A stretch of 64,000 bases of DNA from Acuticoccus yangtzensis (GTDB lineage: Bacteria > Pseudomonadota > Alphaproteobacteria > Rhizobiales > Amorphaceae). The stretch lies in assembly GCF_001927245.1 (NCBI RefSeq), contig NZ_MJUX01000007.1:124001-188000 (forward strand), in the 5' to 3' direction. The position numbers and the translations under genes were made by a program. The notes beneath the pieces were generated by a model. That model saw only the letters and a list, made by a program, of their open reading frames with translations, had not been told where the DNA came from and ran no database searches. Of the stretch, positions 6,046-46,250 are shown piece after piece. Within the stretch, counting starts at the first letter, position 1. Each line of letters opens with the position of its first letter.

Positions 6046-6576
6046 ATGGTGAACCATGATCGTTATGACGACAGCCTCATCGAGCGCATCCTCGCCGAGA
6101 CGCTCACGATCGCCATGGTCGGCGCGTCCGCGAACCTGACGCGCCCCTCCGCCTTCGTCCTCAAGTACCTCTTGGAAAAAGGCTTCGAGGTCGTCCCGAT
6201 CAACCCCGGCCACGCGGGCAAGACGATCCACGGACAGACCGTCGTCGCATCCCTCGCCGACCTCGAGGGGCCGGTCGACATGGTGGACGTCTTCCGCGGA
6301 TCGGACGCGGTGCCGGGCGTGATCGACGAGGTTCTGGCGCTGTCTGAACCACCCAAGGTGGTATGGCTGCAGCTCGGCGTGCGCAACGACGAGGCGGCCG
6401 CCCGTGCCGAGGCGGCCGGGATCACCGTCATCCAGAACCGCTGCCCGAAGATCGAGTATGGCCGCCTGTCGGGCGAGATCGGCTGGGCCGGCGTCAACTC
6501 GCGGCGCCTGTCCTCGAAGCGTCCGGCCCGGCTGGAAGGGTTTCAGCGCCTCGGCATCGTCCCGAAAGGAAAATGA
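6046..6576 (+). CDS. CoA-binding domain protein (YccU-like)
   Basis: Single-domain Rossmann-like CoA-binding protein, 176 residues, of the family related to the N-terminus of succinyl-CoA ligase alpha. Motifs seen are IAMVGASANLTRPS near residue 22, VVPINPG near 49, and VWLQLGVRNDEAAA with VIQNRCPKIEYGRL towards the C-terminus. No catalytic domain is attached. The biochemical role of this family is not established. The start at 6046 (ATG) follows GAGGAAAT. Confidence 0.88.
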   Translation: MVNHDRYDDSLIERILAETLTIAMVGASANLTRPSAFVLKYLLEKGFEVVPINPGHAGKTIHGQTVVASLADLEGPVDMVDVFRGSDAVPGVIDEVLALSEPPKVVWLQLGVRNDEAAARAEAAGITVIQNRCPKIEYGRLSGEIGWAGVNSRRLSSKRPARLEGFQRLGIVPKGK

Positions 6577-11816: not shown

Positions 11817-13259
11817 ATGACCGACGCAACCCTTTCCCGCCCCGACGTCATCGTGTCTTTCAGGCAGGCGCTGGAGACCGAGCTGGGCGCCGACATCCTC
11901 ATCGCCGATGCGGACCGGCTCGCCCCCTATCAGCGCGAATGGCGCAACCTCTACGAAGGCAAGGCGCCCTTCGTCCTGCGCCCGCGCAGCACCGACGAGG
12001 TGGCGGCGATCATGCGACTCGCCACCCGCTTCGGCGTGCCGATCGTGCCGCAGGGGGGCAATACGGGCCTCGTCGGCGGGCAGATCCCCCTGGAGGGCGA
12101 GGTGCTGTTGTCGCTCGACCGCATGACCGCCATCGCTCCTGTGAACGTGTCGGGCAGCACGGTGACGGTGGAGGCCGGCGCGATCCTGTCGGACGTGCAC
12201 GACGCGGCGGACGAGGCGGGGCTGATGTTCCCGTTGTCGCTCGCCTCGAAGGGCTCGGCGCGGATCGGCGGGCTGATCTCCACCAACGCGGGCGGCGTCG
12301 GCGTCCTTGCCTACGGCAACATGCGCGACCAGGTGCTGGGTCTCGAGGTCGTGCTTCCGGACGGGCGGATCTGGAACGGCCTCAGATCGCTCCACAAGGA
12401 CAATGTGGGCTACGACCTCAAGCACCTCTTCATAGGCGCGGAGGGAACGCTCGGCGTCGTCACGAAGGCGGTGCTGTCGCTGGTGCCCAAGCCGCATGCG
12501 CTGGACGTGGCGATGGTGGGCCTCGCCTCCCCCGCCGACGCGTTGACCCTGCTCGGCGAGGTGCGCGGCGCGCTGGGCGATGCGCTGACGGGGTTCGAGC
12601 TTATCCCGAAGATCGGCCTCGACATCGTGAACCGCCACCGCGGCGACACGCGCCGCCCGTTCGCCGAGCTTCCCGAGTGGGCGGTGCTTATCGAGGCGTC
12701 GACCTTCCTGCCGGAGAGGCCGATGCGCGACGTTCTGGAGCAGGTGCTGATGCGCGCTTACGAAGCCGGGCTGATCGGCGACGCGGTGGTGTCGCAGTCG
12801 ATCGCCGAGGCGCAGGAGCTGTGGCTGATCCGCGAGTTGATGAGCGAGGCGCAGTCTGTTCTGGGCGGCTCGATCAAGCACGACGTGTCGGTGCCGGTGG
12901 CGGACGTCCCGGCGTTCCTGGACGAGGCGATCGCGGCGGCGCTGGCGGTGGTACCGGGGGCGATCCCGGTGGCGTTCGGCCATCTGGGCGACGGCAACAT
13001 CCACTTCAACATTTCGCAGCCGGAGGGGAGCGACAAGGCGGCCTTCCTCGCCAAGTACCCCGAGATGCAGGACGCGGTGCATGCGGTGGTGACGCGGTTT
13101 CGCGGCTCGATCGCGGCGGAGCACGGTGTGGGGCGGATGAAGCGGGACATGCTGCCCGGCGTGCGCGACGCGGTGGAGATGGACATGATGCAGGGTGTGA
13201 AGGCGCTGTTCGACCCGCTCAACATCATGAACCCGCACCGCCTGCTGCCGGACCGCTGA
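11817..13259 (+). CDS. FAD-binding D-2-hydroxyacid dehydrogenase (GlcD/D2HGDH family)
   Basis: Flavoprotein of 480 residues oxidising a D-2-hydroxyacid such as D-lactate, glycolate or D-2-hydroxyglutarate. The N-terminal PCMH-type FAD domain shows VPQGGNTGLVGG near residue 79 and GGLISTNAGGVGVLAYGN around 157. The C-terminal FAD-oxidase domain has GHLGDGNIHFN and EHGVGRMKRDML. Length and motifs favour the D-2-hydroxyglutarate/D-lactate branch. It is divergent from fabI. Repeat element A follows its stop by 65 nt, read in the same sense. Confidence 0.93.
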   Translation: MTDATLSRPDVIVSFRQALETELGADILIADADRLAPYQREWRNLYEGKAPFVLRPRSTDEVAAIMRLATRFGVPIVPQGGNTGLVGGQIPLEGEVLLSLDRMTAIAPVNVSGSTVTVEAGAILSDVHDAADEAGLMFPLSLASKGSARIGGLISTNAGGVGVLAYGNMRDQVLGLEVVLPDGRIWNGLRSLHKDNVGYDLKHLFIGAEGTLGVVTKAVLSLVPKPHALDVAMVGLASPADALTLLGEVRGALGDALTGFELIPKIGLDIVNRHRGDTRRPFAELPEWAVLIEASTFLPERPMRDVLEQVLMRAYEAGLIGDAVVSQSIAEAQELWLIRELMSEAQSVLGGSIKHDVSVPVADVPAFLDEAIAAALAVVPGAIPVAFGHLGDGNIHFNISQPEGSDKAAFLAKYPEMQDAVHAVVTRFRGSIAAEHGVGRMKRDMLPGVRDAVEMDMMQGVKALFDPLNIMNPHRLLPDR

Positions 13260-13323
13260 GGCCCCGCGCCCCAATTCCGCGCGGCGCCCCTTGCGAGGCG
13301 CCCACGTATCTCAGGTCCCCTCA

Positions 13324-13517
13324 GCCTGATCGCCGGAGCCGCCTTCGCACAAATCCCTTGGCGGAGATGGTGGTCCCTTGCCAAGGAGCCGCAGGCCGGC
13401 TTTAGCCGCTTGTCCTTGGCGAGGGGCCGCCATCTCTGCCACGCGGTACAGGGCGGAGGTGGGTCCGGCGATCAGGCGGTCCCCTGATCGCTGGTGGGTC
13501 CCGAGCCCGCCGGAGGC
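13324..13517 (+). repeat. structured intergenic element, copy A
   Basis: 194 bp, matching copy B (31602-31795) without gaps and with six substitutions. Layout: left outer arm 13324-13337, inner hairpin arms 13360-13387 and 13413-13440 (24 Watson-Crick plus four G-U pairs), right outer arm 13464-13477 (14 perfect pairs with the left arm), and third arm 13483-13494. The third arm repeats the left arm at 11 of 12 positions and can pair with the right arm across a 6-nt loop. It lies 65 nt after the upstream + strand stop, between convergent genes. It has no T-tract and no credible reading frame. Confidence 0.9.
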
Positions 13518-13536
13518 CGCGGCGCCTCCGCCGGCC

Positions 13537-14325
13537 TCAGCTCTCCTCGTCGTCCTCGCCCGCGGCCGCAGCGGGTCCGCCGCCACGGAACCCGGTGGCC
13601 AAAACGTAGGTTTCGGGCGACTCGGGGCGGGAGGCGGGCGGCTTCACGTGGCGGACCTGGCGGAAGTCGCGGCGGAGCGCGGTGAGGAGGTCGCCCTCGG
13701 TGCCGCCCTGGTAGACTTTGGCGAGGAAGGTGCCGCCGGGCGCCAGGGTGCGCTGGGCGAAGTCCAGCGCCAGTTCCACCAGGCCGACGATGCGCAGGTG
13801 GTCCGTCGCGCGGTGGCCGGTCGTTTCGGGGGCGAGGTCGGAGAGGACGATCTCGGGCCGCCGCCCCTTCAGCGCGTCGATGAGGTTTTGCGGCGCGTTC
13901 TCGTCGTTGAAGTCCTGGGTCAGGATGACGACGTCGTCGAGGTGGTCCATCGGCAGGATGTCGATGGCGACGACGGGGCGCGCGGCGGTGGCGTTGACGC
14001 GGTCGGCCGCGACCTGGCACCATCCGCCGGGCGCGGCGCCGAGGTCGACGACGGTGCGTCCGGGCTTCAGGATGTGGAAGCGATCGTCGATCTCGATGAG
14101 TTTATAGGCGGCGCGGGAGCGGTAGCCCTCGGCCCTCGCCTTTTGCACATAGGGATCGTTGAGCTGGCGTTGGATCCACAGGGTGGACGACAGTTTGCGC
14201 CCCTTCGCGGTTTTCACGCGCTGGGAGATCGCGCGCTGTCCGCCACTGCCGCCGATGCCGGAGCCGGGCCGTTTGGCCCCGCCCTTCGCCCCGCCTTTGG
14301 ACGGGGGCTTTCTGCCGCCGGCCAC
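13537..14325 (-). CDS. rlmE: 23S rRNA 2'-O-methyltransferase (RlmE/FtsJ)
   Basis: SAM-dependent methyltransferase for the A-loop uridine of 23S rRNA, 262 residues. A Gly/Lys-rich N-terminal tail of about 35 residues precedes the catalytic domain. The SAM motif is VVDLGAAPGGWCQVA near residue 92. The K-D-K-E catalytic residues are visible in SRAAYKLIEID, LSDLAPETTGH, FLAKVYQGG and SPETYVLA. The GTG at 14325 is one base after the exopolyphosphatase stop, so the pair is translationally coupled. The Ala/Glu/Asp-rich C-terminal tail is not conserved. Confidence 0.95.
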   Translation of the reverse strand: MAGGRKPPSKGGAKGGAKRPGSGIGGSGGQRAISQRVKTAKGRKLSSTLWIQRQLNDPYVQKARAEGYRSRAAYKLIEIDDRFHILKPGRTVVDLGAAPGGWCQVAADRVNATAARPVVAIDILPMDHLDDVVILTQDFNDENAPQNLIDALKGRRPEIVLSDLAPETTGHRATDHLRIVGLVELALDFAQRTLAPGGTFLAKVYQGGTEGDLLTALRRDFRQVRHVKPPASRPESPETYVLATGFRGGGPAAAAGEDDEES

Positions 14326-28868: not shown

Positions 28869-30209
28869 ATGCGCCTCGGCGCACGGAAGTATCGTTTGAC
28901 GACATTTACGGACCTCGGCCTGTCCGAGCCCATCCTTCGCGCACTCGAAGCGCAAGGCTACAAAAACCCCACACCGATTCAAGCCAAGGTCGTCCCCGCC
29001 ATGATGGCGGAACGCGACGTCCTCGGTACCGCACAGACCGGTACCGGCAAAACCGCAGCTTTCACGCTGCCCATCATCCACCGTCTCATCGGCAAGGGTC
29101 GTCCCGAGCCGAAGACGTGCCGCGCCCTGATCCTTGCGCCGACCCGCGAATTGGCGGCGCAGATCGAGGAGAACGTGCGCGCTTACGCCGCCAATACGCG
29201 GCTGTCGAGCGCGGTCGTCGTCGGCGGCGTCAAGGCCGGCCCGCAGGAGCGCCGTCTGGCGCGCGGTGTCGACATTCTGATCGCCACACCCGGCCGGCTG
29301 GAAGACCACCTGCGCAACCGCGTTCTGACCCTCGGCGCCGTCGAAGTCGCCGTGCTAGACGAAGCGGACCAGATGCTCGACCTCGGCTTCATCCCGGCGA
29401 TCCGCCGCCTGTTCCGTCAGCTTCCGGCCGACCGACAGACGGCTCTCCTGTCGGCGACCATGCCGCCGGAGATCCGCAAGCTCGCCGCCGACTTCCTGGC
29501 CGAGCCGGAGGAGATCGCCGTCGCCCCGGTGTCCCGCCCGGTCGAGGCGATCGACCAGTCGGTCCGCCACATGGATGCCGGTGCCAAGCGCGACGCGCTG
29601 GCTGGCATCGTCTCGGGCAGCGACGTGGAGCGGGCGATCGTCTTCACCCGCACCAAGCGCGGCGCCGACCGCGTCTCGAAGAACCTCGAGACGGCCGGCT
29701 GTGCCTCCGTGGCGATCCACGGCAACAAGAGCCAGAACCAGCGCCAGCGCGCGCTGGACGCGTTCCGCGACGGCTCGGCCAAGGTGCTGGTGGCGACCGA
29801 CATCGCCGCCCGCGGCATCGACATTTCCGGCATTTCGCACGTCGTGAACTACGAGCTGCCGAATGTTCCGGAAGCCTACGTCCACCGCATCGGCCGCACA
29901 GCGCGCGCCGGCCGGTCGGGCGTGGCCGTCACCCTTTGCGCGCCTGACGAGCTGAAGCTCCTGCGCGACATCGAACGCCTGATCGGCCGCCGCCTGGCAG
30001 CCGAGAATGCACCCGCTTCGACGCCTGAGTCCGCCGCGCCGGCCCCGGCCGACAAGCGGTCCCGGCCCCGCCGCCGCAAGCCGGCCGCGTCGTCGAACCC
30101 GCAACACCGCCGCTCGGCTCCGGCCGACCGGCCCCGCACCGGTCCCCGCCGGACCAAGACTTCCACTTCGCGGCATGCATCCACCACCGCGCCGCAGCAG
30201 ACGATCTAG
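28869..30209 (+). CDS. DEAD-box ATP-dependent RNA helicase (RhlE-like)
   Basis: RNA helicase of 446 residues. Motifs in order: Q motif NPTPIQAKVVPAM, Walker A AQTGTGKT, PTRELAAQI, TPGRLEDHL, DEAD in VLDEADQMLDLG, SAT, then in the second RecA domain VFTRTKRGAD, ATDIAARGIDI and HRIGRTARAG. The C-terminal 75 residues are a basic Ser/Pro/Arg tail for RNA binding. The ATG at 28869 is used; TTG nine codons later is possible. CspA follows ten nt downstream, suggesting joint use in unfolding RNA at low temperature. Confidence 0.94.
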   Translation: MRLGARKYRLTTFTDLGLSEPILRALEAQGYKNPTPIQAKVVPAMMAERDVLGTAQTGTGKTAAFTLPIIHRLIGKGRPEPKTCRALILAPTRELAAQIEENVRAYAANTRLSSAVVVGGVKAGPQERRLARGVDILIATPGRLEDHLRNRVLTLGAVEVAVLDEADQMLDLGFIPAIRRLFRQLPADRQTALLSATMPPEIRKLAADFLAEPEEIAVAPVSRPVEAIDQSVRHMDAGAKRDALAGIVSGSDVERAIVFTRTKRGADRVSKNLETAGCASVAIHGNKSQNQRQRALDAFRDGSAKVLVATDIAARGIDISGISHVVNYELPNVPEAYVHRIGRTARAGRSGVAVTLCAPDELKLLRDIERLIGRRLAAENAPASTPESAAPAPADKRSRPRRRKPAASSNPQHRRSAPADRPRTGPRRTKTSTSRHASTTAPQQTI

Positions 30210-30218
30210 GAGACAACC

Positions 30219-30428
30219 ATGGCCACTGGTTCGGTCAAATGGTTCAACAGCACCAAAGGTTACGGGTTCATCGCGCCTGACGAGGGCGGCCAGGACGTGT
30301 TCGTGCACATCAGCGCCGTTGAGCGCGCCGGTATGCGCGACCTCGCGGAAGGCCAGAAGGTCTCTTACGAGATCGAAGTCGACCGCCGCCGCAACAAATC
30401 TTCGGCTGTGAACCTTCGCGCTCTCTAA
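30219..30428 (+). CDS. cspA: cold-shock domain protein
   Basis: 69-residue single-stranded nucleic-acid-binding protein with one cold-shock domain. RNP1 is KGYGFIAP (residues 13-20) and RNP2 is DVFVHIS (26-32). The start ATG 30219 follows AGGAG by four to five nt. It is co-transcribed with the upstream helicase and ends in a strong terminator. Members may act as RNA chaperones under cold or constitutively. Confidence 0.96.
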
Positions 30429-30456
30429 GCGCCCCCATGTTTGGGACTACGATATG

Positions 30457-30484
30457 AAAAGCCGCCTTCGGGCGGCTTTTTTTA
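30457..30484 (+). terminator. intrinsic terminator after cspA
   Basis: GCCGCC-TTCG-GGCGGC stem with a stable tetraloop, followed by seven T residues and preceded by AAAA. Confidence 0.95.
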
Positions 30485-30580
30485 TGGGCTGGGCCGCCCC
30501 TTTGCGGTTGCTCTTTCCCCCCGCCCGGCCCACTTTCCCCGCCCCGACAACGATAAAAATAGACGACCGGAGGACTTCCC

Positions 30581-31492
30581 ATGACCCGCTATAACGGCGT
30601 GTGGCCCGTCGCCCCCACCCCCTTCAACGCCGACGGCACGCTCGACATCGAGGGCATGAAGCGCGTCATCGACTGCATCGTCGATTCGGGCGCCGACGGC
30701 GTCTGCATCCTCGCCAACTTCTCAGAGCAGTTCCTGCTTACCGACGAGGAGCGCGAGACGCTGACCCGCGTCAGCCTGGAGCACATGGCCGGGCGCATCC
30801 CGGTGATCGTCACCTGCTCGCATTATTCGACCGACATCGTCGTCTCGCGCGTGGCCAAGGCGAAGGCGCTCGGCGCCGCCATGGTGATGCTGATGCCGCC
30901 CTATCACGGCGCGCTCCTGAAGGGCACCGAGGCGCAGACCTACGAGCAGTTCGCCCGTGTGGGTGAGATCGGCCTGCCGATCATGATCCAGGACGCGCCG
31001 CTGTCGGGCGTGGAGCTGACGGTGCCGTTCCTGGTGCGTCTCGCCAAGGAGATCGAGGCGGTGCAATATTTCAAGATCGAGACCCCGCAGGCGGCGGCCA
31101 AGCTGCGCGGGCTGATCGCAGCGGGGGGCGACGCGATCGTCGGCCCGTTCGACGGTGAGGAGGGCATCACCCTGATGGCCGACCTCGACGCGGGCGCCAC
31201 CGGTTCGATGACCTCGGCCACCCTCCCCGACAAGGTGAAGCCCGTCCTGGCGGCCCACGCGGCGGGCGACCGCGCGACGGCGGCGGCGCTCTACAAGGAC
31301 ATTCTGCCGCTGATCAACTACGAGAACCGCCAATGCGGTCTGAGGGCCTGCAAGACGGTGATGATGGAAGGCGGCGTCATCAAGTCCGACGTCGTGCGCC
31401 ACCCGATGCCGCAGATCGCCCCGGCGACGCGCGAGGGCCTTCTGGAGCTCGCCCGCGAGGTGAACCCGCTCGCCCTCACCTGGGGCCGCTGA
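30581..31492 (+). CDS. dihydrodipicolinate synthase-family aldolase/dehydratase
   Basis: TIM-barrel class I aldolase family member, 303 residues. The Schiff-base lysine is Lys165 in QYFKIETP. The GTTGE substrate motif of true DapA is replaced by ANFSEQFLLTDEERE, so it is not lysine biosynthesis; this variant resembles 2-keto-3-deoxy-sugar-acid dehydratases. A sugar-acid or similar alpha-keto acid is the likely substrate. GGAGG lies 7 nt before ATG 30581. Element B begins 110 nt past its stop in the same sense. Confidence 0.88.
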   Translation: MTRYNGVWPVAPTPFNADGTLDIEGMKRVIDCIVDSGADGVCILANFSEQFLLTDEERETLTRVSLEHMAGRIPVIVTCSHYSTDIVVSRVAKAKALGAAMVMLMPPYHGALLKGTEAQTYEQFARVGEIGLPIMIQDAPLSGVELTVPFLVRLAKEIEAVQYFKIETPQAAAKLRGLIAAGGDAIVGPFDGEEGITLMADLDAGATGSMTSATLPDKVKPVLAAHAAGDRATAAALYKDILPLINYENRQCGLRACKTVMMEGGVIKSDVVRHPMPQIAPATREGLLELAREVNPLALTWGR

Positions 31493-31601
31493 CCCTTCCG
31501 CTTCGCACGGCGCCGCCGCCAACAGCGCAGCGATGCCACGCCCACTCCCCCGCGCGGCGCCACCGCCACCCGCGAGGCGCCCACGCACCTCGGGCCCGTT
31601 T

Positions 31602-31795
31602 GCCTGATCGCCGGAGCCGCCTTCGCACCAATCCCTTGGCGGAGATGGTGGTCCCTTGCCAAGGAGCCGAAGGCCGGCTTTAGCCGCTTGTCCTTGGCGA
31701 GGGGCCGCCATCTCTGCCACGCGGTGCAGGGCGGAGGTGGTTTCGGCGATCAGGCGGCCCCCTGATCGCTGGTGGGTCCCGAGCCCGCCGGAGGC
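31602..31795 (+). repeat. structured intergenic element, copy B
   Basis: Near-identical to copy A (six differences in 194 bp). Left outer arm 31602-31615, inner hairpin arms 31638-31665 and 31691-31718 (identical to copy A's), right outer arm 31742-31755, third arm 31761-31772. Two of the differences from A fall in the right arm and still allow G-U or A-U pairs. It lies between the aldolase gene (+) and the AcuI-like gene (-), ending 12 nt before the latter's stop. Confidence 0.9.
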
Positions 31796-31806
31796 TTCAG
31801 CGCCGC

Positions 31807-32808
31807 CTATTTCGCCATGTCGACGACGATGCGCCCGCGGATCTTCCCCTCGAGGATGGCGGTGCCGAGCGCGGGCACATCGGCCAGCGTCTTCTCCTCG
31901 ATCATCGCGTCCAGCAGACCCAGCGGCAGATCCTCAGCGATGCGGCTCCACGCGGAGAGGCGCGCCTCCCGCGGCTGCATCACCGAGTCGATGCCGAGGA
32001 GGTTGACCCCGCGCAGGATGAACGGGAGCACCGTCACGCCCTCGATCGCAGGACCGCCGGCGAGGCCGACAGCGGCGACGGAGCCGCCATACTGGATCAG
32101 CGTCAGGGCATGGGCGAGCATCGACCCGCCTACCGCGTCGATCGCGCCCGAATAGGTCTCGCGGCCGAGAGGGCGCTTGGGCGGGGCGGCGATGTCGCCG
32201 CGCGCCACGATGGTGGAGGCGCCGAGCGACTTCAGGTAGGTCTCCCACTCGGGCCGGCCGGTGACGGCGGCGACCTCGTAGCCGAGCTTGGCGAGGATCG
32301 CGACAGCGACGGACCCGACGCCGCCCGATGCGCCGGTGACGAGGACGGGCCGTCCGCCCGGCGTCAGGCCGTGGCCTTCCAGCGCCATCACGGACAGCAT
32401 CGAGGTGAGGCCCGCGGTGCCGACCGCCATCGCCTGGCGCTGGGTCAGGCCCTTGGGCAGAGGCACCAGCCAGTCCCCCTTCACGCGGGCCTTGTCGGCG
32501 TAGCCGCCCCACCAGATCTCGCCGACGCGCCAGCCGGTCAGAACCACCTCGTCGCCGGGGCTGTAACGCGGATCGTCCGACGCCTCGACGGTGCCCGCGA
32601 AGTCGATGCCGGGGACGTGCGGATAGTCGCGCACCAGCGCACCGCCGCCGGTCATGCACAGGCCGTCCTTGTAGTTCACCGTCGTGTAGTTGACGGCGAC
32701 GGTCACCATCTTGTCGCCGGCCTCGCCGGTGGGCAGGCGGTCCTCGCTGATGGTTTCGATGCCTGCGGTGATGCCGCTGTCGGTCTTGTCGACGATGAGT
32801 GCCCGCAT
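31807..32808 (-). CDS. acuI: AcuI-like NADPH acrylyl-CoA reductase / quinone oxidoreductase
   Basis: Zinc-independent MDR-family reductase, 333 residues. The N-terminal TTVNYKDGLCMTGG and YPHVPGIDFAGTV blocks and the nucleotide motif VTGASGGVGSVAVAIL (about residue 150) match AcuI, which reduces acryloyl-CoA to propionyl-CoA in DMSP and 3-hydroxypropionate metabolism and detoxifies acrylate. No other DMSP genes are in the window, so the physiological substrate is inferred from the family only. Confidence 0.85.
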   Translation of the reverse strand: MRALIVDKTDSGITAGIETISEDRLPTGEAGDKMVTVAVNYTTVNYKDGLCMTGGGALVRDYPHVPGIDFAGTVEASDDPRYSPGDEVVLTGWRVGEIWWGGYADKARVKGDWLVPLPKGLTQRQAMAVGTAGLTSMLSVMALEGHGLTPGGRPVLVTGASGGVGSVAVAILAKLGYEVAAVTGRPEWETYLKSLGASTIVARGDIAAPPKRPLGRETYSGAIDAVGGSMLAHALTLIQYGGSVAAVGLAGGPAIEGVTVLPFILRGVNLLGIDSVMQPREARLSAWSRIAEDLPLGLLDAMIEEKTLADVPALGTAILEGKIRGRIVVDMAK

Positions 32809-34779: not shown

Positions 34780-37700
34780 TTAATACTCGCGTTCGTAATA
34801 GAGGCCGACGGATGTTTCGTCCGTATAGGTCTCCGCGCGGGCCTTGAGGCCGCGGGTGATGTCGACGTTGACCGTGATCCCGGTCGATTCCGCCCCCGCC
34901 CGCACGCCGATATAGACGTTGTCGGCGATGTAACGCCCCGCCTCCACCGCCGTGCCGCCGGACTCGGTGGTGACGACCTCGAGGTTGTCGAGCCCGGAGA
35001 AGGCGCGCACCTGGTCGAGGATGGAGGGGCCGTTGCCGACACCGGCGAGCTCGGCCACCGCGGCGGCGAGCTGGGCGAGCTGGAAGGCGGACAGGTCCTC
35101 GATAGACCGGCCGAAGATGAGCTGCGACAGCACTTCGTCCTGCGGCAGATCGGGCGTCGATTCGAAGCGCACCTGCGGATCGTTCGCCGGACCGTCGACG
35201 ATGACGCGCACGGTGACCGAATTCCGGCTCGTCTCGGCGACGAGGTAGATGATCGGGTTGAGGTCGCCGACAAGGGACACGCGCCCCTCGGTGAAGACGA
35301 TGCGCTGGGTGAGGATGTTCACCCGCCCGCGGATCAGATCGAACTCACCGACCGGGACGATATCGGAGATCGGGCCGGTGACGCGCAGGCGTCCGCCGAG
35401 TTCGGCGTCGATGCCGCGGCCGCGTACGAAGATGCGGTTGGGGGCATTGATGGTGACGTCGAGCGTCAGACCCGAGGCGCCGGTGCCACCGTCTTCGCCG
35501 GTGTCGGCGAAGGGGCCGGCCTTGGCGCGCCGCAGCGTCTCCATGACGTCGGGCGGCGTGTTGAAGTGGGCGACCTCCATCAGCGCCGCGGTGCCCGAAA
35601 GGCGGGTCGGGACGGTGATTTCGGCGCGATCGATGTCGACGGTGCCGCGCACGGTGGGCCCGGCGGTCAACGGACCGTCGATGCCGAGCGCCGCGTCGAA
35701 GGTGACCGCGATGAGTTCGCCGTCCGCATAGCGCGCATTGTCGGCGGTGAAGCGGAGGCTCGCGGGGAAGCCGGCGCCGAGGCCGATGGAGCCCGCCACG
35801 CTGACCGTGCCGTCGCCGAGGCCCGCGGTCAGCCGGTCGATGACGATCCGGTCCCCGGTGAGGCTGGCGACGAGCTGTCCGTTCGCGAGGGTGAGGTTGG
35901 ACTGCGGGTCGCGGAAGCCGAAGCCGGACGAGCGGACCGAGCCGGAGAGGTTCGGCGCGGTCAGCGATCCCGTCGCGCGGGCGTTGGCGGTGACGGTGCC
36001 GTCCATGGAGGCGCCGCGCTCGGCGAGGAAGCGGTTGGCGAGCGACAGCGGCGCAGTGGCGTCGATCGACACGTCGAGCCCGCCGCCGGACAGAGGCACC
36101 GTGCCGGACGCGGTGACCGAGAGGCCGCTGCCTTCGGCCCGCGCAGAGGCGATGCGCACGCGGTTGTTGGCGAAATCGCCGGAGGCGTTGACGGTCAGTG
36201 CGCCGACCCCGGCGTCGGACAGAGGCAGCGCCGAGATGCCGGTGCCGGAGAGGTTGAAGCGTGCGGACGGGTTGCCGATCGGCCCCGACGCCTGGGCCGA
36301 GCCGGAGAGGCGGCCCGATAGGCCGAGATTGTCGACGAAGCCGTTCGCGATCGCCACCGGCAGCGAGGTGAGGTCGACCGAGACGTTCAGTCTGTCGCCG
36401 ATGCGGCCGGAGGCGCGGGCCGAGCCGCCGCCGAGCTGCACCAGCGCCTCGGTGAGGTCGACGGTGCCGCGGGCGTAGGAGCCGGACGCGGTGAACGAGC
36501 CGGGGCTGATCCCCGCCGCGCGGATGGGCGCCGCGGACAAGGACGGCGCGCGGGCGGTGAAGGTGACGCGCGGGTCGGCGGGGGCGCCCTCGGCCCGCAC
36601 CTCGCCCGACAGGGTGCCGGTCATGCCGAGTTCGGGGCGGAAGCCGTTGGCGATGGCGAGCGGGATCTCGGACAGGCGGGCGGTGAGGTCGAGCCGGTCG
36701 GCACCCGCGGTGCCGGTGAGGGTGATGGTCCCCTGCCCCAGCCGCGCCTCGGCGGTGGTGAAGGTGGCCGTCCCGCCTTGATAGCGGCCGGAGATGTCGG
36801 CGTTGATCGCACCGACGTTCGCGCCCTCGAGCTGCCGCGCGGAGGCCCCGGCAATGCTGACGGAGAAGTCCGCCGCGGGGTCCGCCGGCGCGCCGGTGAC
36901 GGTGGCGCGGCCGGACAGCGTGCCCGACAGGCCGAGCGACGGGTACGCCGCGTTGGCGAGCGCCAGCGGCAGCCGCTCGACGTTGACGGTGATGTCGAGC
37001 GCCTCGCCGATGGTGCCGGCGGCGGTGACGGAGCCGCCGCCCACCGTGGTCAGGAAGCGGTCCAGCGTGGCGGTGCCGTTGGCGTAGGAGCCGCGCGCCT
37101 CGGCGTTGAGCGGCGAGATGCCGGCGGCACGCATCTGGGCGACGGTGGCGCCGGTGACGTCGAGGCTGAAGGTGGCGCTCGGGTCGTCCAGCGCGCCGGT
37201 CGCGGACACGGTGCCGGAGAGGATGCCCGCCGCGCCGAGGCCGGGACGCACCGCCTCGGCCAGCGCCAGCGGAAGGTCGGCGATCGTGGCGGTGACGTTC
37301 AGCGTCTCGCCGATGGCGCCGCTGGCGGTGATGCGTCCGCCGCCGACGGTGGTCTCGAAGGCTTCGAGCTGGGCGGTGCCGTTCGCGAAGGTGCCGGTCG
37401 CGGTGGCGTTCAGCGGCTCCAGCCGCGCATCGCGCAGCGGCTTGGCGTTGGCGTCGGCCACGGTCACGTCGAAGCTGGCGTCGGGGTCGGCGAGGGTGCC
37501 GGTCGCCCGCACGCGGCCCGACAGCGTGCCGGACACCTCGTATTCGGGCGCCACCGCGTTGGCGAGGGCGAGCGGCAGAGCGTCGACGGTGGCGGTGATG
37601 TCCAGCGTCTCGCCCACGGTGCCGGACGCCTGGATGGCGCCGCCGCCGACGTTGGTCTCGAACTGCTGCAGCGTCGCGGTGCCGCCGGCATAGGTGCCGC

Positions 37701-40596
37701 GGGCGACCACGGTCAGCGGCTCGATGCCCTTCTCGGTGAGGAAGGCGGCGGTGACGTCGTTGGCGGTGATGTCGGCGGTGACGTTGGGATCGGCGCGTGT
37801 GCCGGACACGGCCACGGAGCCGTCGACCGTGCCGCCCACGGCAAGGTCGGGGCGGATCAGGTTGGCGACGCGCAGCGGCAGCGCGTCGATCTCGGCCTTC
37901 AGCGACAGCGTGTTGCCGAGGCGGCCTTCGACGATGATCGAGCCGTCGCCCACCGACAGCACCGTGTTCCCAACGGTGATGACGTTGCCGACGACGCTCA
38001 CCTGGGTCGGCATCCTGAGCACGGTGGTGAAGTCGCCCTGGGAGAGGTCGAAGGCGCGAAGGCGGGCGGTGAAGCCGTCCTCGGCGCGGGCGAGAGAGCC
38101 CGCCGCCGTCAGCATGCCGGAGCCGAGATTGGCATCGAACTGGATGTTCGAGGCGTCACCCTGGCGCGTCGCCAGAAGCTCGGCGCTCACCACCTCGTAG
38201 CCCGCCACCGCGAGTTCGCGCAGCGAGGCGCGCCCGTCGAGGGCGGGGACGCCGAACACGTTGTCGACGACGATGTCGAGGTCCGCTTCGCCGAGGCGTG
38301 CCCCGGCGGCGGAGAGGCCCCGCACAAACCCTTCCACGGCGGCGACCTGCTTGCCCTCGTTCACCGAGAGCGTGATCGTCGCGTCGATGGCGCCGGTCGC
38401 CTCCATCATCGCCAGCGCGGCGAGGGTGGCAAGGTCCGGCACGTCCACGTCGAGGTTGCCGACGACGGTGCCCAAACGCTGCAAGGCGATGTCGCCCGAC
38501 AGGGAGGCACCGGCGATCTCGGCCGAGAGGTCCTGAAGCGCGCGGGCGTCGGGCCCGGACTCCAGCGTGGTCGTCAACGTCAGCGGGCGGCCGTCCAGCG
38601 TGCCGGCGACGTTGAGCGCGCCGTCGAGGTCGAAGGCGACGTCCTCGCTGCGGGTATAGACGCCGTCGAAGGTTGCGGTCAGCCGCTCCAGCGTGTGGCC
38701 GGTGAGGGTGAGGGACGGGCTGTCGATCGCCGCTCGCACGTTGGGCCTGGCCGGATTCCCGGTGACGGTCACCGCCGCGTTCAGCGCGCCGGACGCATCG
38801 CCGCCCATGACCGAAGCGTCGGGCAGCGAGGCATCGACGCGCAGGTCCGCCTCGGTGGTGGTCGCCTCGCCGTCGGCGGTGAGGCTGAGCTGCGGATTGG
38901 CGAGGCTGAACCCGTCGAAGATGAGCCCCGTCTCTGACCGGGCGGCGCGGCCCGCAAGGCGCGTCTCGCCGCTCAAGATCCCGTCCAGCGCCTCGGAACC
39001 GGCGATGATGTCGGAAGCGGTGCCGTCCAGCGTGAGGTCGAAGGTGCCGTCGAACCCGGCGCGGCCGTTCGCGGAGATGTCGACGGAGCCGGCAAGGTCG
39101 CGCCCGGCGAGCGCGGCGAAGGCGGAGATATCCTCCGCGGCGAGGCGCATTTGGCCCGTGATGGCGTCCAGGATCGTGCCCGTGAAGGAGGCCTCAACGG
39201 TGTCGGTGCGCAGCTCAAGCGTCGTGACGTCGACCGGCTGGCCGGCCGACCAGGTGCCCGCCACGTCGAGGTCGAGCGCGTCGCCCAGCGCGTCACCCAC
39301 CCCTTCGCGGTCCGAATCGATGCCGGACGCGCGGCCGGTCACGGTGAAGGTCACCGCGCGAGTGGCCGCATCGTCGAGGTTGGTGGCCGTTCCGTTGGCG
39401 CGGATCGTCGCCTCGGGCGCGGCGATCATCGCCGTATCGAGGTCGGAGATCGCGATCTCGGCGCTGAAGGCATCGGAGCCGCCGCCGAGGGAGGCTGTGA
39501 TGCGGGCCGAGCCGATGGTGGACGTGCCGTCGCCGCCCGGAAGCGCGATCGCCTCGCCGTCCTGGCGTTCGAGCGTCCCATCCACGTTCAGCGCCCGCGG
39601 CACGCCATCAGCGCCGATGTCGGCAGTGAATTCGAGTTCGGCGACGCCGGAGCGCAGCCGCCCCTCGCTGACGGTGATGGACCCGTCCGCGGCGCGCGTC
39701 GCATCGACCTTCAGCTCGGAGCCGCCGCCGACGAAGGAGTCATACGCGTCCGGCACCAGAACGCTGAGGTCGCCGTTGATGTCGGCGACGAAGTGGAAAT
39801 TGTCGCCCGCATTGTCGATGGAGGTGGTGCCGGAAAGCAGCGTGTCGCCATCGGCGATCAGGGCGAGGTTCGCCTGGAACTCGGCCAGCGGCCCCTCGCC
39901 TTTGATCGTGAACTCGATCGGCGGCCGGTCCTCGATGTTGAGGGCGTTGGCGATCACCCCGTCCGCCGGCTCGCTCACCTCGAAGTCGATCGCAAGATTG
40001 CGCGTGTCGTTGGCAAAGCTCGCCGAAAGGTTGAGGTTGCCGGGCCGGTCCAGCCGCTCGACGGCCAGCGTCGTGTCGAGCGCGCCGCCGGCCAGAGAGA
40101 TGTTGCCGTTGACCGACAGCGACGCCGCGGGGCCGATGATGCCTTCCGCGATCTCCACCCGCGGGACGCTCAGTTCGCGAAGGATGACCGACACCGGCAG
40201 GCTCGGCAGCTCGAACTGCTCGGCGCCCTGCTCGAGCGGCTCGTCGTTGTTGGTCGAAACGGGGGTCCGCGTCAGGGTGATCGACTCGGCCTCGAGGAGA
40301 TCCACCGACAGGCGGCCGCGCAGCAGCGCCAGGCGGGACCAAACCAGGTGCACGTTGTCGAGCCGCAGCCACACCCCGCGCGTATCGGCGATGGTGATGA
40401 AGGCGAGCCGCACATCCGACGACAGCGCCCCCTGGATGGGGCCGAGATTGATCTGCCGGTCGGGCGTCGAGATCTGCCGTTCGACGAAGCGCACGAAGCG
40501 GCCCGACTCCTCGTCCTGCGCCACGGCGGGGCGCACGGTGGCGACACCCGCCGAGGCGAGGACCAACACGCACAGCGCGGCCAGGATCCGCTTCAT
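34780..40596 (-). CDS. tamB: TamB, inner-membrane-anchored bridging protein of the translocation and assembly module
   Basis: Very large AsmA/TamB protein of 1938 residues spanning the periplasm; works with TamA in outer-membrane protein insertion and probably phospholipid transport. A signal anchor of about 26 residues (LAALCVLVLASAGVATV) starts the protein. Residues about 905-1530 contain seven repeats with a period near 101 residues, each carrying (L/I)P(L/V)(A/R)(I/L/V)AN followed by GxLSG. The DUF490 domain at about 1620-1938 includes GEFDLIRGRVNIL and LSQLIFGRSIEDLS and ends in YYEREY. The start ATG 40596 follows GGGAG. It begins 66 nt after tamA. Confidence 0.95.
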   Translation of the reverse strand: MKRILAALCVLVLASAGVATVRPAVAQDEESGRFVRFVERQISTPDRQINLGPIQGALSSDVRLAFITIADTRGVWLRLDNVHLVWSRLALLRGRLSVDLLEAESITLTRTPVSTNNDEPLEQGAEQFELPSLPVSVILRELSVPRVEIAEGIIGPAASLSVNGNISLAGGALDTTLAVERLDRPGNLNLSASFANDTRNLAIDFEVSEPADGVIANALNIEDRPPIEFTIKGEGPLAEFQANLALIADGDTLLSGTTSIDNAGDNFHFVADINGDLSVLVPDAYDSFVGGGSELKVDATRAADGSITVSEGRLRSGVAELEFTADIGADGVPRALNVDGTLERQDGEAIALPGGDGTSTIGSARITASLGGGSDAFSAEIAISDLDTAMIAAPEATIRANGTATNLDDAATRAVTFTVTGRASGIDSDREGVGDALGDALDLDVAGTWSAGQPVDVTTLELRTDTVEASFTGTILDAITGQMRLAAEDISAFAALAGRDLAGSVDISANGRAGFDGTFDLTLDGTASDIIAGSEALDGILSGETRLAGRAARSETGLIFDGFSLANPQLSLTADGEATTTEADLRVDASLPDASVMGGDASGALNAAVTVTGNPARPNVRAAIDSPSLTLTGHTLERLTATFDGVYTRSEDVAFDLDGALNVAGTLDGRPLTLTTTLESGPDARALQDLSAEIAGASLSGDIALQRLGTVVGNLDVDVPDLATLAALAMMEATGAIDATITLSVNEGKQVAAVEGFVRGLSAAGARLGEADLDIVVDNVFGVPALDGRASLRELAVAGYEVVSAELLATRQGDASNIQFDANLGSGMLTAAGSLARAEDGFTARLRAFDLSQGDFTTVLRMPTQVSVVGNVITVGNTVLSVGDGSIIVEGRLGNTLSLKAEIDALPLRVANLIRPDLAVGGTVDGSVAVSGTRADPNVTADITANDVTAAFLTEKGIEPLTVVARGTYAGGTATLQQFETNVGGGAIQASGTVGETLDITATVDALPLALANAVAPEYEVSGTLSGRVRATGTLADPDASFDVTVADANAKPLRDARLEPLNATATGTFANGTAQLEAFETTVGGGRITASGAIGETLNVTATIADLPLALAEAVRPGLGAAGILSGTVSATGALDDPSATFSLDVTGATVAQMRAAGISPLNAEARGSYANGTATLDRFLTTVGGGSVTAAGTIGEALDITVNVERLPLALANAAYPSLGLSGTLSGRATVTGAPADPAADFSVSIAGASARQLEGANVGAINADISGRYQGGTATFTTAEARLGQGTITLTGTAGADRLDLTARLSEIPLAIANGFRPELGMTGTLSGEVRAEGAPADPRVTFTARAPSLSAAPIRAAGISPGSFTASGSYARGTVDLTEALVQLGGGSARASGRIGDRLNVSVDLTSLPVAIANGFVDNLGLSGRLSGSAQASGPIGNPSARFNLSGTGISALPLSDAGVGALTVNASGDFANNRVRIASARAEGSGLSVTASGTVPLSGGGLDVSIDATAPLSLANRFLAERGASMDGTVTANARATGSLTAPNLSGSVRSSGFGFRDPQSNLTLANGQLVASLTGDRIVIDRLTAGLGDGTVSVAGSIGLGAGFPASLRFTADNARYADGELIAVTFDAALGIDGPLTAGPTVRGTVDIDRAEITVPTRLSGTAALMEVAHFNTPPDVMETLRRAKAGPFADTGEDGGTGASGLTLDVTINAPNRIFVRGRGIDAELGGRLRVTGPISDIVPVGEFDLIRGRVNILTQRIVFTEGRVSLVGDLNPIIYLVAETSRNSVTVRVIVDGPANDPQVRFESTPDLPQDEVLSQLIFGRSIEDLSAFQLAQLAAAVAELAGVGNGPSILDQVRAFSGLDNLEVVTTESGGTAVEAGRYIADNVYIGVRAGAESTGITVNVDITRGLKARAETYTDETSVGLYYEREY

Positions 40597-40662
40597 CGCT
40601 CTACTCCCGTCAGGGCGCCCGTCCGCACCGGGGGCGCCGGCATGTGGCCGCACTCAGAAGAC

Positions 40663-43724: not shown

Positions 43725-45113
43725 ATGAACATTCAAGTCGCCCCCAACGATATCAGCCACGTCATCGAGGCCGACAAGGCCAATGTCTGGCACCACCTGA
43801 CCCAGCACGCCGCGTTCGAGACGGCCGATCCGCGCATCATCGTGGAAGGCAAGGGCCTCCACGTGTGGGACGCGACGGGGCGGCGGATGATCGACGCGGT
43901 GTCCGGCGGCGTGTGGACGGTGAATGTCGGCTACGGCCGCACCCGCATCGCCGACGCGGTGCGGGACCAGATCATGAAGATGAACTTCTTCGCCGCGGCG
44001 GCCGGCTCCGTCCCCGCCGCCCTGTTCGCCGAAAAGCTGATCGAGAAGATGCCCGGCATGAGCCGCGTCTACTACTCGAACTCGGGGTCGGAGGCGAACG
44101 AGAAGGCGTACAAGATCATCCGCCAGATCGCCCACAAGAAGTACGGCGGCAAGAAACACAAGATCCTGTTCCGCGAGCGGGATTATCACGGCACCACCAT
44201 CGCCGCGCTGGCCTCCGGCGGGCAGCCGGAGCGCGCGGCCCACTACGGCCCGTTCCCGCCGGGATTCGTCCAGGTGCCGCACTGCCTCGAATATCGCAGC
44301 CAATATGGTGACGTGGCCGACTACGGCGTGCGCGCCGCAAAGGCGATCGAGGAGGTGATCCTCGCCGAGGGGCCGGACACGGTGGGCGGCATCGTGCTGG
44401 AGCCGATCACGGCGGGCGGCGGCGTCATCACCCCGCCCGAGGGATATTGGGAGACGGTGCAGGAGATCTGCACCAAGTACGACATCCTCCTCCATCTCGA
44501 CGAAGTGGTCTGCGGTCTCGGCCGCACGGGTCAGTGGTTCGGCTACCAGAATTACGGCATCAAGCCCGACCTCGTGACCATGGCGAAGGGCCTCGCCTCC
44601 GGCTACGCGGCGATCTCGTGCACGGTGACCACCGAGCGTGTGTTCGACATGTTCAAGGACGACCCCAGCGACCCGCTGGGCTATTTCCGCGACATCTCGA
44701 CCTTCGGCGGCTGCACGGCGGGTCCTGCGGCGGCGCTCGAGAACCTGAAGATCATCGAAGAGGAAAACCTCCTCGACAACACGCTCGCTCGCGGCGAACA
44801 GCTCGGCGGTCTCCTCGAAGAGATCAAGGCCAAACACGCCATCGTCGGCGACGTGCGCGGCAAGGGCCTCTTCTGGGGGCTGGAGCTGGTGGCAGACCGT
44901 ACGACGAAGGAGCCGCTGGCGGAGAAGCTGGTCGCGGCGGTCGTCGGCGCGGTGGGCAAGCGCGGCGTCATCATCGGCATGACCAACCGTTCGCTGCCGG
45001 GCCTCAACAACACGCTGTGCATAGCCCCGCCGCTGATCGCGACGGCGGCCGACATCGCCGACATCGCCGAGGCGATCGACGGCGCACTCGCCGAGGTCAC
45101 CGCCACGCTCTGA
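43725..45113 (+). CDS. tpa: class III aminotransferase, taurine-pyruvate aminotransferase-like
   Basis: PLP-dependent transaminase of 462 residues. Features: N-terminal WHHLTQHAAFETADPRIIVE, SNSGSEANEKAYKI, HLDEVVCGLGRTGQWFG, the PLP lysine at 288 (VTMAKGLASGY), and FGGCTAGPAAALENL. These fit taurine:pyruvate transaminase (Tpa), which makes sulfoacetaldehyde and alanine. The TauE/SafE-type exporter gene downstream agrees with sulfonate use, since sulfite must then leave the cell. Other omega-amino acids are possible substrates. Element C lies 116 nt past the stop. Confidence 0.78.
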   Translation: MNIQVAPNDISHVIEADKANVWHHLTQHAAFETADPRIIVEGKGLHVWDATGRRMIDAVSGGVWTVNVGYGRTRIADAVRDQIMKMNFFAAAAGSVPAALFAEKLIEKMPGMSRVYYSNSGSEANEKAYKIIRQIAHKKYGGKKHKILFRERDYHGTTIAALASGGQPERAAHYGPFPPGFVQVPHCLEYRSQYGDVADYGVRAAKAIEEVILAEGPDTVGGIVLEPITAGGGVITPPEGYWETVQEICTKYDILLHLDEVVCGLGRTGQWFGYQNYGIKPDLVTMAKGLASGYAAISCTVTTERVFDMFKDDPSDPLGYFRDISTFGGCTAGPAAALENLKIIEEENLLDNTLARGEQLGGLLEEIKAKHAIVGDVRGKGLFWGLELVADRTTKEPLAEKLVAAVVGAVGKRGVIIGMTNRSLPGLNNTLCIAPPLIATAADIADIAEAIDGALAEVTATL

Positions 45114-45228: not shown

Positions 45229-45404
45229 GCCTGTTCACCGGAGCCAGCCGTCGCTGAGACAGCGGCGAGGCGAGCGGGCGCGGGCTGCAAGGGTTCAAGC
45301 ACAGCGGCCCTTGCGGACCGTGCCCGCTTGCCTCAGAGCGTGCGAGGCGATGGCTGGGTTCGGTGAACAGGCGGGCCGCCCTGTTCATCGGTGGAGCCCG
45401 AGCC
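45229..45404 (+). repeat. structured intergenic element, copy C (diverged)
   Basis: 176 bp with the same layout as copies A and B but a mostly different sequence. Left outer arm 45229-45242 (GCCTGTTCACCGGA), inner hairpin arms 45267-45294 and 45307-45334 (23 Watson-Crick, four G-U, one mismatch), right outer arm 45359-45372, third arm 45380-45391 (CCTGTTCATCGG). The arms differ from A at matching positions so that pairing is kept. The right flank (GAGCCC at the end) is still alignable to A and B. Confidence 0.8.
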
Positions 45405-45494
45405 CTCGCGGCCTCTCCCTCCCGTGACGCGGAGCGGGCGCGCCCCGCCCGTTCGCCGTCACCACCCGCACACCCGACCCGCACAGGACCTGCC

Positions 45495-46250
45495 GTGACC
45501 ACCCTCTTTCCCGCGCCCGAGATTCTGGCCGTCCTCTGCGCCGCCGTGTTCGTCGCGGCGGTGCTGCGCGGCCTCACCGGGTTCGGCTTCGCGCTCGCCG
45601 CCGTGCCGCTCATGTCGCTGGTGGTGGAGCCTGCGCGCGCGGTGGTGATGGCGATCGTGCTTCAGCTTCTCGTCGGCGTCCGCGACCTCATCACCCTGCA
45701 CGGCATGCTCGACCGGCCGTCGCTGGTGCGCATGTCGGCAGGGGCGGTGGTGGGCACGCCCGCCGGGGTCGCGCTGCTGTTGGTCTTGGACCCGGCGGTG
45801 ATGCGCCTCGCCATCGCTCTGGTGGTGTTCGCCGGGCTCGCCTTTCTTCTGAAGGCGCCGCAGAAGCCGGCCGCGGACCGGCTGACGCTGGCGCTGCCGA
45901 TGGGGATCGTCGCCGGCGCCTTCGCGGGCCTCGCGGCGATGCCCGGTCCGCCCGCCGTCGCCTATTTTCTCGGCGTCGACAGGCCGGCCGCCGTCAAGCG
46001 CGCGTCGCTGATGATCTTCTTCTTCGCCACGTCCGTCATCGCCATCCCGCTGCTCCTGGCGGGGGGCGAAGTCGACGGGGGCATCGCGCTCGCCAGCCTG
46101 GTGGCGCTGCCGGTGCTGGTCGCGGGCACGGCGGTCGGCACGTGGCTCTTCCGGCGCACCAGCGAGGCCGGCTACCGCAACCTCGCCATCGCCACGCTGG
46201 CGGTGATGGCGCTGATGTCCGGGCTCCGCGGCCTCGCCGGCCTGCTCTGA
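45495..46250 (+). CDS. TauE/SafE-family anion exporter
   Basis: Inner-membrane protein of 251 residues with seven or eight hydrophobic segments, family TSUP/TauE. The N-terminal half shows LRGLTGFGFALAAVPLMSLV and the second half its internal duplicate around LPMGIVAGAFAGLAAMPGPP. I use GTG 45495 with an AGGACC-type ribosome site; the frame is open further upstream but runs through element C and is not conserved. Exported anion is probably sulfite or sulfoacetate if linked to the upstream aminotransferase. Confidence 0.85.
   Translation: MTTLFPAPEILAVLCAAVFVAAVLRGLTGFGFALAAVPLMSLVVEPARAVVMAIVLQLLVGVRDLITLHGMLDRPSLVRMSAGAVVGTPAGVALLLVLDPAVMRLAIALVVFAGLAFLLKAPQKPAADRLTLALPMGIVAGAFAGLAAMPGPPAVAYFLGVDRPAAVKRASLMIFFFATSVIAIPLLLAGGEVDGGIALASLVALPVLVAGTAVGTWLFRRTSEAGYRNLAIATLAVMALMSGLRGLAGLL

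Follow-up and report, generated by a model that had tools for sequence, protein, structure and literature searches.

An interspersed repeat family of Acuticoccus, found mainly at gene 3′ ends, with a predicted hairpin constrained on one strand

The interspersed non-coding repeats of enterobacteria known as ERIC, IRU or RU-1 are similar in size to the repeat described here and, like it, are thought to be mobile. For ERIC-like repeats in general, the mode of spread and the question of RNA or DNA as the form in which the fold matters are, to our knowledge, still unsettled. ERIC is a 127 bp enterobacterial sequence, whereas the Acuticoccus repeat, compared with it by description, has a branched apex, a trio of segments (X1, A′ and X2) and solo forms. 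The Rhizobium-specific intergenic mosaic elements (RIME) come from the same order as Acuticoccus and are intergenic and modular. MITEs are also small, non-coding and multi-copy, and partial inverted repeats were seen by eye at the ends of some Acuticoccus copies only; however, neither a parent transposon nor a unit target duplication is evidenced for the Acuticoccus repeat, and its inner stem changes freely while the pairing is kept.

The REP, REPIN and BIME sequences associated with TnpA-REP (RAYT) resemble the repeat in being palindromic and extragenic and in occurring in many copies in 3′ UTRs. REPs are 20–40 bp long and REP/RAYT systems have GTAG or CGTC tags (PMC3733652); the Acuticoccus repeat, at about 190–230 nt, is far larger than this unit, and the Y1 HUH transposase that REP/RAYT needs was found in none of 10 genomes of the family. 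The Br-REP1 and Br-REP2 sequences of Bradyrhizobium are likewise alphaproteobacterial stem-loops present in many copies, and Br-REP1, which was discovered where the 3′ UTRs of convergent genes overlap, is by placement the nearest case described in the order (PMC5082802); the Br-REP consensus sequences printed there look, by eye, unrelated to the Acuticoccus repeat and are much shorter. ERIC is reported to affect mRNA by way of RNA conformation, in a manner that depends on its orientation (PMC2229807). The literature searched, partly available in excerpt and mostly without subscription papers (it included PMC5082802, PMC2873474, PMC5747140, PMC2267715 and PMC2229807), held no description of this family, which is most likely new and ERIC/REP-like, ERIC and RIME being compared by description only. 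Many copies with strong strand-specific covariation, related species in which the element is full, solo or absent, and copies oriented either way relative to genes make the RNA-versus-DNA question of the fold testable in this family, and a strand bias that is independent of gene direction helps to separate the need of the element from that of host mRNA.

The repeat was recognised in a stretch of 64,000 nucleotides (the window) from the genome of Acuticoccus yangtzensis (5,043,263 bases in 29 contigs; placed by NCBI in Hyphomicrobiales, Amorphaceae). An initial annotation of the window had described two copies, A (13324–13517) and B (31602–31795), and these do align without gaps, with exactly six differences over 194 positions. 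The inner arms are alike in the two copies and form 28 pairs, 24 Watson–Crick and four G–U, as had been claimed; the 14 pairs reported for the outer arms of copy A are all Watson–Crick, and in copy B there are 13 such pairs and one G–U. The element is real, but the size of 194 nt originally given to it was too short: the ungapped repeat between the two copies covers 13314–13529 and 31592–31807, and aligned copies have a common 5′ extension that starts in copy A at about 13294. The full unit, about 190–230 nt long, is ordered as 5′ extension, X1, long hairpin with branched apex, A′, X2 and tail. Copies A and B had also been said to follow a + strand gene, which is correct, but each in addition lies just beyond the end of a − strand gene, 19 nt downstream of the stop codon for copy A and 11 nt for copy B, so this pair is uninformative on orientation. 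A third and more divergent copy in the window, C, belongs to a second subfamily; it spans 45229–45406 with covariance model R3 and 45229–45412 with model R1 (genome position C27:169229–169412). The parts of copy A, the other two copies and the neighbouring genes are given below, the gene calls having been made with a home-made codon score that was trained on the window and, in a comparison made at a single place, matched the deposited annotation.

13294–13323 (start approximate), + strand: 5′ extension of copy A (CGAGGCGC..CTCAGGTCCC), common to many copies; by eye, it may pair in part with the tail
13324–13337, + strand: outer 5′ arm (A1) of copy A, 14 Watson–Crick pairs with 13464–13477
13325–13333, + strand: X1 of copy A (CCTGATCGC), inside A1, from the X1/X2 test
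13360–13387, + strand: inner 5′ arm of copy A, 28 pairs with the inner 3′ arm
13388–13408, + strand: apex of copy A, two small hairpins (RNAalifold and pair counts)
13388–13396, + strand: apex hairpin 1 of copy A, GCC-GNA-GGC
13397–13408, + strand: apex hairpin 2 of copy A, CGGC-TTTA-GCCG
13413–13440, + strand: inner 3′ arm of copy A (pair counts)
13464–13477, + strand: outer 3′ arm (A′) of copy A, complementary to both A1 and A2
13483–13491, + strand: X2 of copy A (CCTGATCGC), from the X1/X2 test
13484–13494, + strand: A2 of copy A, which repeats part of A1 in direct orientation and can pair with A′ in its stead
13495–13517, + strand: conserved tail of copy A, present in solo forms too, without the hairpin
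31602–31795, + strand: copy B, whole element, 97% identical to copy A
45229–45406, + strand: copy C, subfamily 2, 115 bits with R3, aligned as L081
11817–13259, + strand: FAD-linked oxidase gene upstream of copy A (gene call; PF02913, PF01565)
13537–14325, − strand: FtsJ-like methyltransferase gene convergent on copy A (gene call; PF01728)
30581–31492, + strand: dihydrodipicolinate synthetase family gene upstream of copy B (gene call; PF00701)
31807–32808, − strand: zinc-binding dehydrogenase family gene convergent on copy B (gene call; PF00107, PF08240)
43725–45113, + strand: class-III aminotransferase gene upstream of copy C (gene call; PF00202)
45495–46250, + strand: TauE/SafE family gene downstream of copy C on the same strand (gene call; PF01925)

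The predicted fold of copy A has an energy of −146.9 kcal/mol on the + strand (z −10.5) and −113.3 kcal/mol on the − strand (z −6.0), with none of 200 shuffles as stable in either case, and copy B gave −142.7 kcal/mol (z −9.3) on the + strand. Covariation bears this fold out. In subfamily 1 (37 copies, 63 pairs) 97.5% of 2308 cells were paired, compared with only 31–48% in controls in which the structure was slid along the alignment, and 33 of the 63 pairs showed double changes; the 254 double-change cells compare with 72.4 (SD 8.7) in shuffles, and none of 500 shuffles was as high on any measure. The sequence of the inner stem is nearly free but its pairing is kept, with both-sided changes in 22 of the 28 pairs over the 37 copies. 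At the apex, hairpin 2 has a compensatory G–C to C–G change in 4 of the 37 copies, whereas hairpin 1 is invariant and, as it never varies, is neither supported nor opposed. Subfamily 2 has a similar architecture with a different loop, and invariant motifs such as GGAGCC are present in the repeat. What is conserved is pairing, in agreement with the initial annotation, and the idea of a protein remnant was ruled out because of this and because one-sided changes follow base pairing.

The initial annotation had argued from G–U pairs that the + strand is the one under constraint, and the larger set of copies upheld this, G–U being far commoner than A–C. Subfamily 1 had 225 G–U, 9 A–C and 48 other mismatch cells, and subfamily 2 had 126, 6 and 49, respectively. 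When only one-sided changes were counted (subfamilies 1 and 2), those leading to G–U numbered 178 and 100 (C>U 120 and 76, A>G 58 and 24), those leading to A–C 8 and 5 (G>A 8 and 4, U>C 0 and 1) and other mismatches 38 and 40. Since G–U arises by both C>U and A>G, a single mutational bias cannot explain the strand asymmetry. The excess of G–U over A–C and the compensatory changes are features of a structured single-strand (RNA-like) family. The + strand was also the more stable in all 83 copies folded (L033 being left out as well as L065), by a median of 20.9 kcal/mol, and in 10 of 11 divergent copies, L126 folding better on the other strand. Among the solo forms this was true of only two of six, and the strand bias therefore belongs to the hairpin. 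Few pair-breaking changes were seen between near-identical copies: in one group none of 7 distinct changes was of this kind (3.8 expected) and in another only 2 of 30 were (13.6 expected; overall 2 among 37 against 17.4, with four changes lying outside the columns used for the expectation), which indicates that the constraint on the fold is recent or still acting.

A whole-genome search, as the initial annotation had suggested, revealed a repeat that is amplified, with at least 37 copies in two subfamilies, three of them within the window. The 35 rows returned by blastn with copy A correspond to 25 distinct copies in the genome, the remainder being reverse-strand echoes and fragments; a loop pattern with up to three mismatches found 23 places and the reversed control pattern none. 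Model R1, built from 37 copies, added 12 copies of subfamily 2, counted as those fetched and aligned. Some of the 37 copies in the genome may be duplicated segments rather than separate insertions, as the flanks of L075 and L079 are alike, and likewise those of L074, L078 and L082.

Among 10 genomes of the family, R1 at E 0.001 had matches in seven and none in G007, G008 and G009; in the matches listed, full-length copies were present in five of the seven other Acuticoccus genomes and G002 had short matches only. Across the order R1 matched 7 of 397 genomes, six of them Acuticoccus. Model R2, built from both subfamilies and a copy from G254, matched 16 of the 397, eight Acuticoccus and eight from other families, with G002 and G007 giving partial matches only. 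The G254 copy with R2, and with R3 the seven divergent copies included in its training, match by construction; copy A was in the training of R3 as well, with which copy B scores 126.8 bits over 31602–31787. The best R2 matches outside training were in G369, G203 and G139 (E 2e-8 to 1e-7). With R3 at E 0.01 each of the eight other-family genomes had one to three divergent matches, although in G139 one of the two is the opposite strand of the same place. Four R3 places were outside its training (G288:C20:53518, G288:C20:35964, G203:C136:38786 and G288:C2:97553, the last already detected by R2), and each of them has, by eye, both end motifs and a repeated X. A class-wide search gave, besides the own genome, a single weak match in 385 genomes, by eye without end motifs. 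The pattern scan of named genomes yielded five stretches, all in one MAG (Co_bin.305), from a set that possibly excludes records near the window's own genome.

In plasmid records, copy A had no match and copy C had one, NZ_CP094833.1 of Acuticoccus sp. I52.16.1. Exact patterns of subfamily 1 and subfamily 2 were absent from viral contigs, and two loose anchor patterns hit 35 and 17 stretches there, about chance level by a rough estimate; R3 found nothing convincing in these 52 stretches, with four matches at E 1. The best of these (20.9 bits, E 0.021), on viral contig L196 at 6296–6401, resembles the 5′ end and A′ weakly and in part only, and may be due to chance. Comparison with Rfam, also proposed at the outset, gave no family match: at curated scores the window had none, and in evalue mode six loci had only sub-threshold microRNA-type hairpins over the element. 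A sub-threshold match to the cspA thermoregulator (L003 1–384, 45.8 bits, gathering 78; window 30102–30485) was rejected as an identity for the repeat, as it lies over and before a cold-shock gene (30219–30428, PF00313).

The relation of the copies to genes was determined for 84 copies with flanks; L065 was dropped, and the set omits full-length places such as L055, L059, L062, L066, L069 and L136 and many places in G005. Convergent junctions held 47 of these copies, 23 were tandem antisense, 11 tandem sense and 3 divergent. The convergent share is well above that of the window (8 of 49 junctions, Fisher p 8e-6, with this one window, its own copies included, as background), and 32 of the 34 tandem copies lie nearer to a stop than to a start codon when a 38-nt 5′ extension is counted in the element. 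Antisense tandem copies exceeded sense ones by 23 to 11 (binomial p 0.058). The fold bias did not depend on orientation, with a median of −19.8 kcal/mol in antisense copies compared with −20.3, −21.2 and −35.6 kcal/mol in the other classes (p = 0.68). Thus, of the 3′-UTR element originally proposed, the association with gene 3′ ends is supported, whereas its sense-strand nature is not, and location in a sense 3′ UTR does not explain the one-strand constraint, as antisense copies have the same bias. Placement without regard to gene ends or orientation had been named as evidence against the proposal; in fact the copies respect gene ends and ignore orientation. The bias toward 3′ ends could be a mere purging of insertions elsewhere.

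A 9-nt segment, X, occurs twice in each element. For its analysis X1 was taken as the 9 nt before the conserved YGGAGCC and X2 as the 9 nt before a conserved TGGTG-like motif, X2 being the best-matching candidate and the cross-copy control following the same rule; this was possible in 91 of 95 copies (80 from the genus and 11 divergent), L014, L022, L024 and L083 being lost. X1 and X2 agreed on average at 8.3 of 9 positions in the 80 copies of the genus. In the divergent copies eight agreed at 8 or 9 positions and three at 4, the repeats in these three being, by eye, shifted in register, although X is not the same from copy to copy, agreement across copies averaging 3.5 with none at 8 or more. 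X varies between elements while its flanks stay. A′ was complementary to X1 at 9/9, with G–U allowed, in 77 of the 80 copies (mean for shuffled X, 7.1). We did not adopt the idea that X is a plain target duplication, because within the genus X tracks the element family more closely than it does the site, and because of this match to A′.

A′ can also pair with A2. In subfamily 1 (37 copies) 97.5% of 407 cells pair, with 80 G–U against 3 A–C, and in subfamily 2 356 of 363 cells pair, with 69 G–U against none. Covariation is thinner for A′:A2, as double changes occur in 3 of 11 pairs, a level reached by 69 of 500 shuffles, whereas the other four measures were reached by none of the 500; these shuffle controls cover subfamily 1. 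The A1:A′ and A′:A2 pairings are mutually exclusive, and since A1 and A2 have X in common and both pair with A′, a switch between the two is possible, in which the folded strand would swap the long A1:A′ hairpin for the short A′:A2 hairpin. A switch is the natural reading of this exclusivity, but it may not be general, because in the divergent copies A′ matches X at 7.9/9, hardly above shuffles (7.3); for these copies the identity of X1 and X2 is firmer than the switch.

Solo forms consist, by eye, of the 5′ extension, one X and the tail, without the hairpin. Four such places are in G005, with an X of subfamily-1 type, and one is in G000 (C29); the G005 locus that is orthologous to that of copy A carries a solo with a subfamily-2-type X in place of the full element of G000. 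The origin of solo forms is most simply explained by slippage that deletes the part between X1 and X2, although insertion of a hairpin into a solo is possible. In a different kind of reduced copy, L257 (G005:C1:531752), the inner stem is lost and X1, A′, X2 and tail are kept (by eye). Parts also seem to have been exchanged between copies, since copies A, B and L002 have almost the same hairpin but 5′ extensions that differ more, and since L010, L019 and L028 by eye combine subfamily-1 centres with a subfamily-2-type X.

The positions of copies differ between species. In the set of loci taken, a common position at the same junction of orthologous genes, judged by proteins within 1.5 kb with >45% identity, was seen for a single pair of copies from different species (L076/L086). 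In one operon G000, G003 and G005 have copies at three different junctions; at two of the three a copy-free species has overlapping genes, and the empty junctions are too diverged for a target-site duplication to be read. The copy B locus offers no clean empty site, because the downstream gene is a different one in G003 and G005. The Y1 transposase domain (PF01797) was found in none of the 10 family genomes, six of which carry full-length copies (control 5/14), and the reverse transcriptase domain RVT_1 (PF00078) in none either (control 3/14). A reverse-transcribed or Y1-driven element was rejected for this reason, and the search for these two domains linked no transposase or other partner to the repeat. 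Of the “mobile or amplified” element first proposed, amplification was confirmed, and copy number and differing positions suggest that mobility is likely.

We consider, with a probability of about 0.6, that these sequences form an interspersed repeat family of the ERIC/REP type, non-coding and non-autonomous, which was amplified in Acuticoccus and in which one strand must fold. The repeat would have spread to many loci, mostly just 3′ of stop codons and with a preference for convergent junctions, and its + strand (as oriented in the window) would have to fold, as RNA or as single-stranded DNA. That the constraint is equal in copies antisense to their neighbours suggests that the fold would be needed by the element itself, in its own transcript or in a copying step, more than by an upstream mRNA. 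Resident copies are probably strong hairpins at points where read-through transcription from convergent genes meets, with a possible effect on the mRNAs. A more specific proposal, in our view improbable, is that of a mobile element that spreads by its folded single strand using a strand-exchange switch, with no known transposase or reverse-transcriptase partner. Here the two direct copies of X would compete for the one complementary A′, X would serve either as a tag for self-recognition or as a base-paired target that has been duplicated, and solo elements would remain after precise deletion of the part between X1 and X2, as with solo LTRs.

It is unlikely that the repeat is instead a cis-acting 3′-UTR element, in which a + strand hairpin, forming the 3′ end of the mRNA from the gene upstream, stops exonucleases or terminates transcription, with the fold maintained by selection locus by locus. 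Its very stable fold, its placement near stop codons (32/34 tandem copies) and at convergent junctions (47/84), and recent changes that are mostly silent for pairing would all suit such a role, and a role of this kind has been reported for E. coli REPs located in 3′ UTRs (PMC5082802), but the excess of antisense over sense tandem copies (23 to 11), with the same strand bias (p 0.68), argues against it, as does a pattern scan of 13100–13700, around copy A only, that found no terminator-like or sigma-70-like pattern. Very unlikely, we think, is a mobile element in which an HUH (Y1) enzyme recognises the folded strand as single-stranded DNA, in the manner proposed for REP and TnpA-REP. It would account for foldability being kept on one strand only and for a REP-like extragenic placement, and G–T pairs are tolerated in DNA too; against it is the lack of a Y1_Tnp domain in the 10 family genomes, which are drafts where a gene may be missed and were searched for the Y1 family only. 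The possibility of a stand-alone small RNA gene family, each copy with its own promoter and many copies serving dosage or different targets, we judge quite unlikely. A variable inner stem and an X that differs between elements within constant flanks would suit different targets, and invariant motifs such as GGAGCC and a strand bias independent of gene orientation are also in keeping with it; but no promoter pattern of the sigma-70 type, the one scanned for, was found near copy A, and presence and positions vary between species of one genus, G002 and G007 having partial matches only.

Several minor observations were made in the course of the analysis. In G007 and G002, in which no full elements were found, L128, L129 and L135 have an apical module like AAGG-CCGAAGAGCGAAGCGTG-CCTT amid other flanking sequences; it is absent from the window and is perhaps a third family with only the apex in common. 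Three copies have short palindromes in their end region, AGAACTGCGC..GCGCAGTTCT (absent from the window) and AAGTCCGC..GCGGACTT, which resemble smaller repeats that have been inserted (L014, 5′ side; L022 and L024, 3′ side; L254). Contig C12 of G005 (109,544 bases; L113–L118) carries ten full copies, a high density for a 7.8 Mb genome, and has genes in common with the plasmid contig C6 of G003. At L002/L021 (G000:C12:442413–442695) the 3′ half of one copy is tandemly duplicated, with 94% identity. Finally, a − strand reading frame at 34780–40653 in the window is very long (1957 aa), and its internal repeat at 303-nt spacing suggests a repetitive protein.
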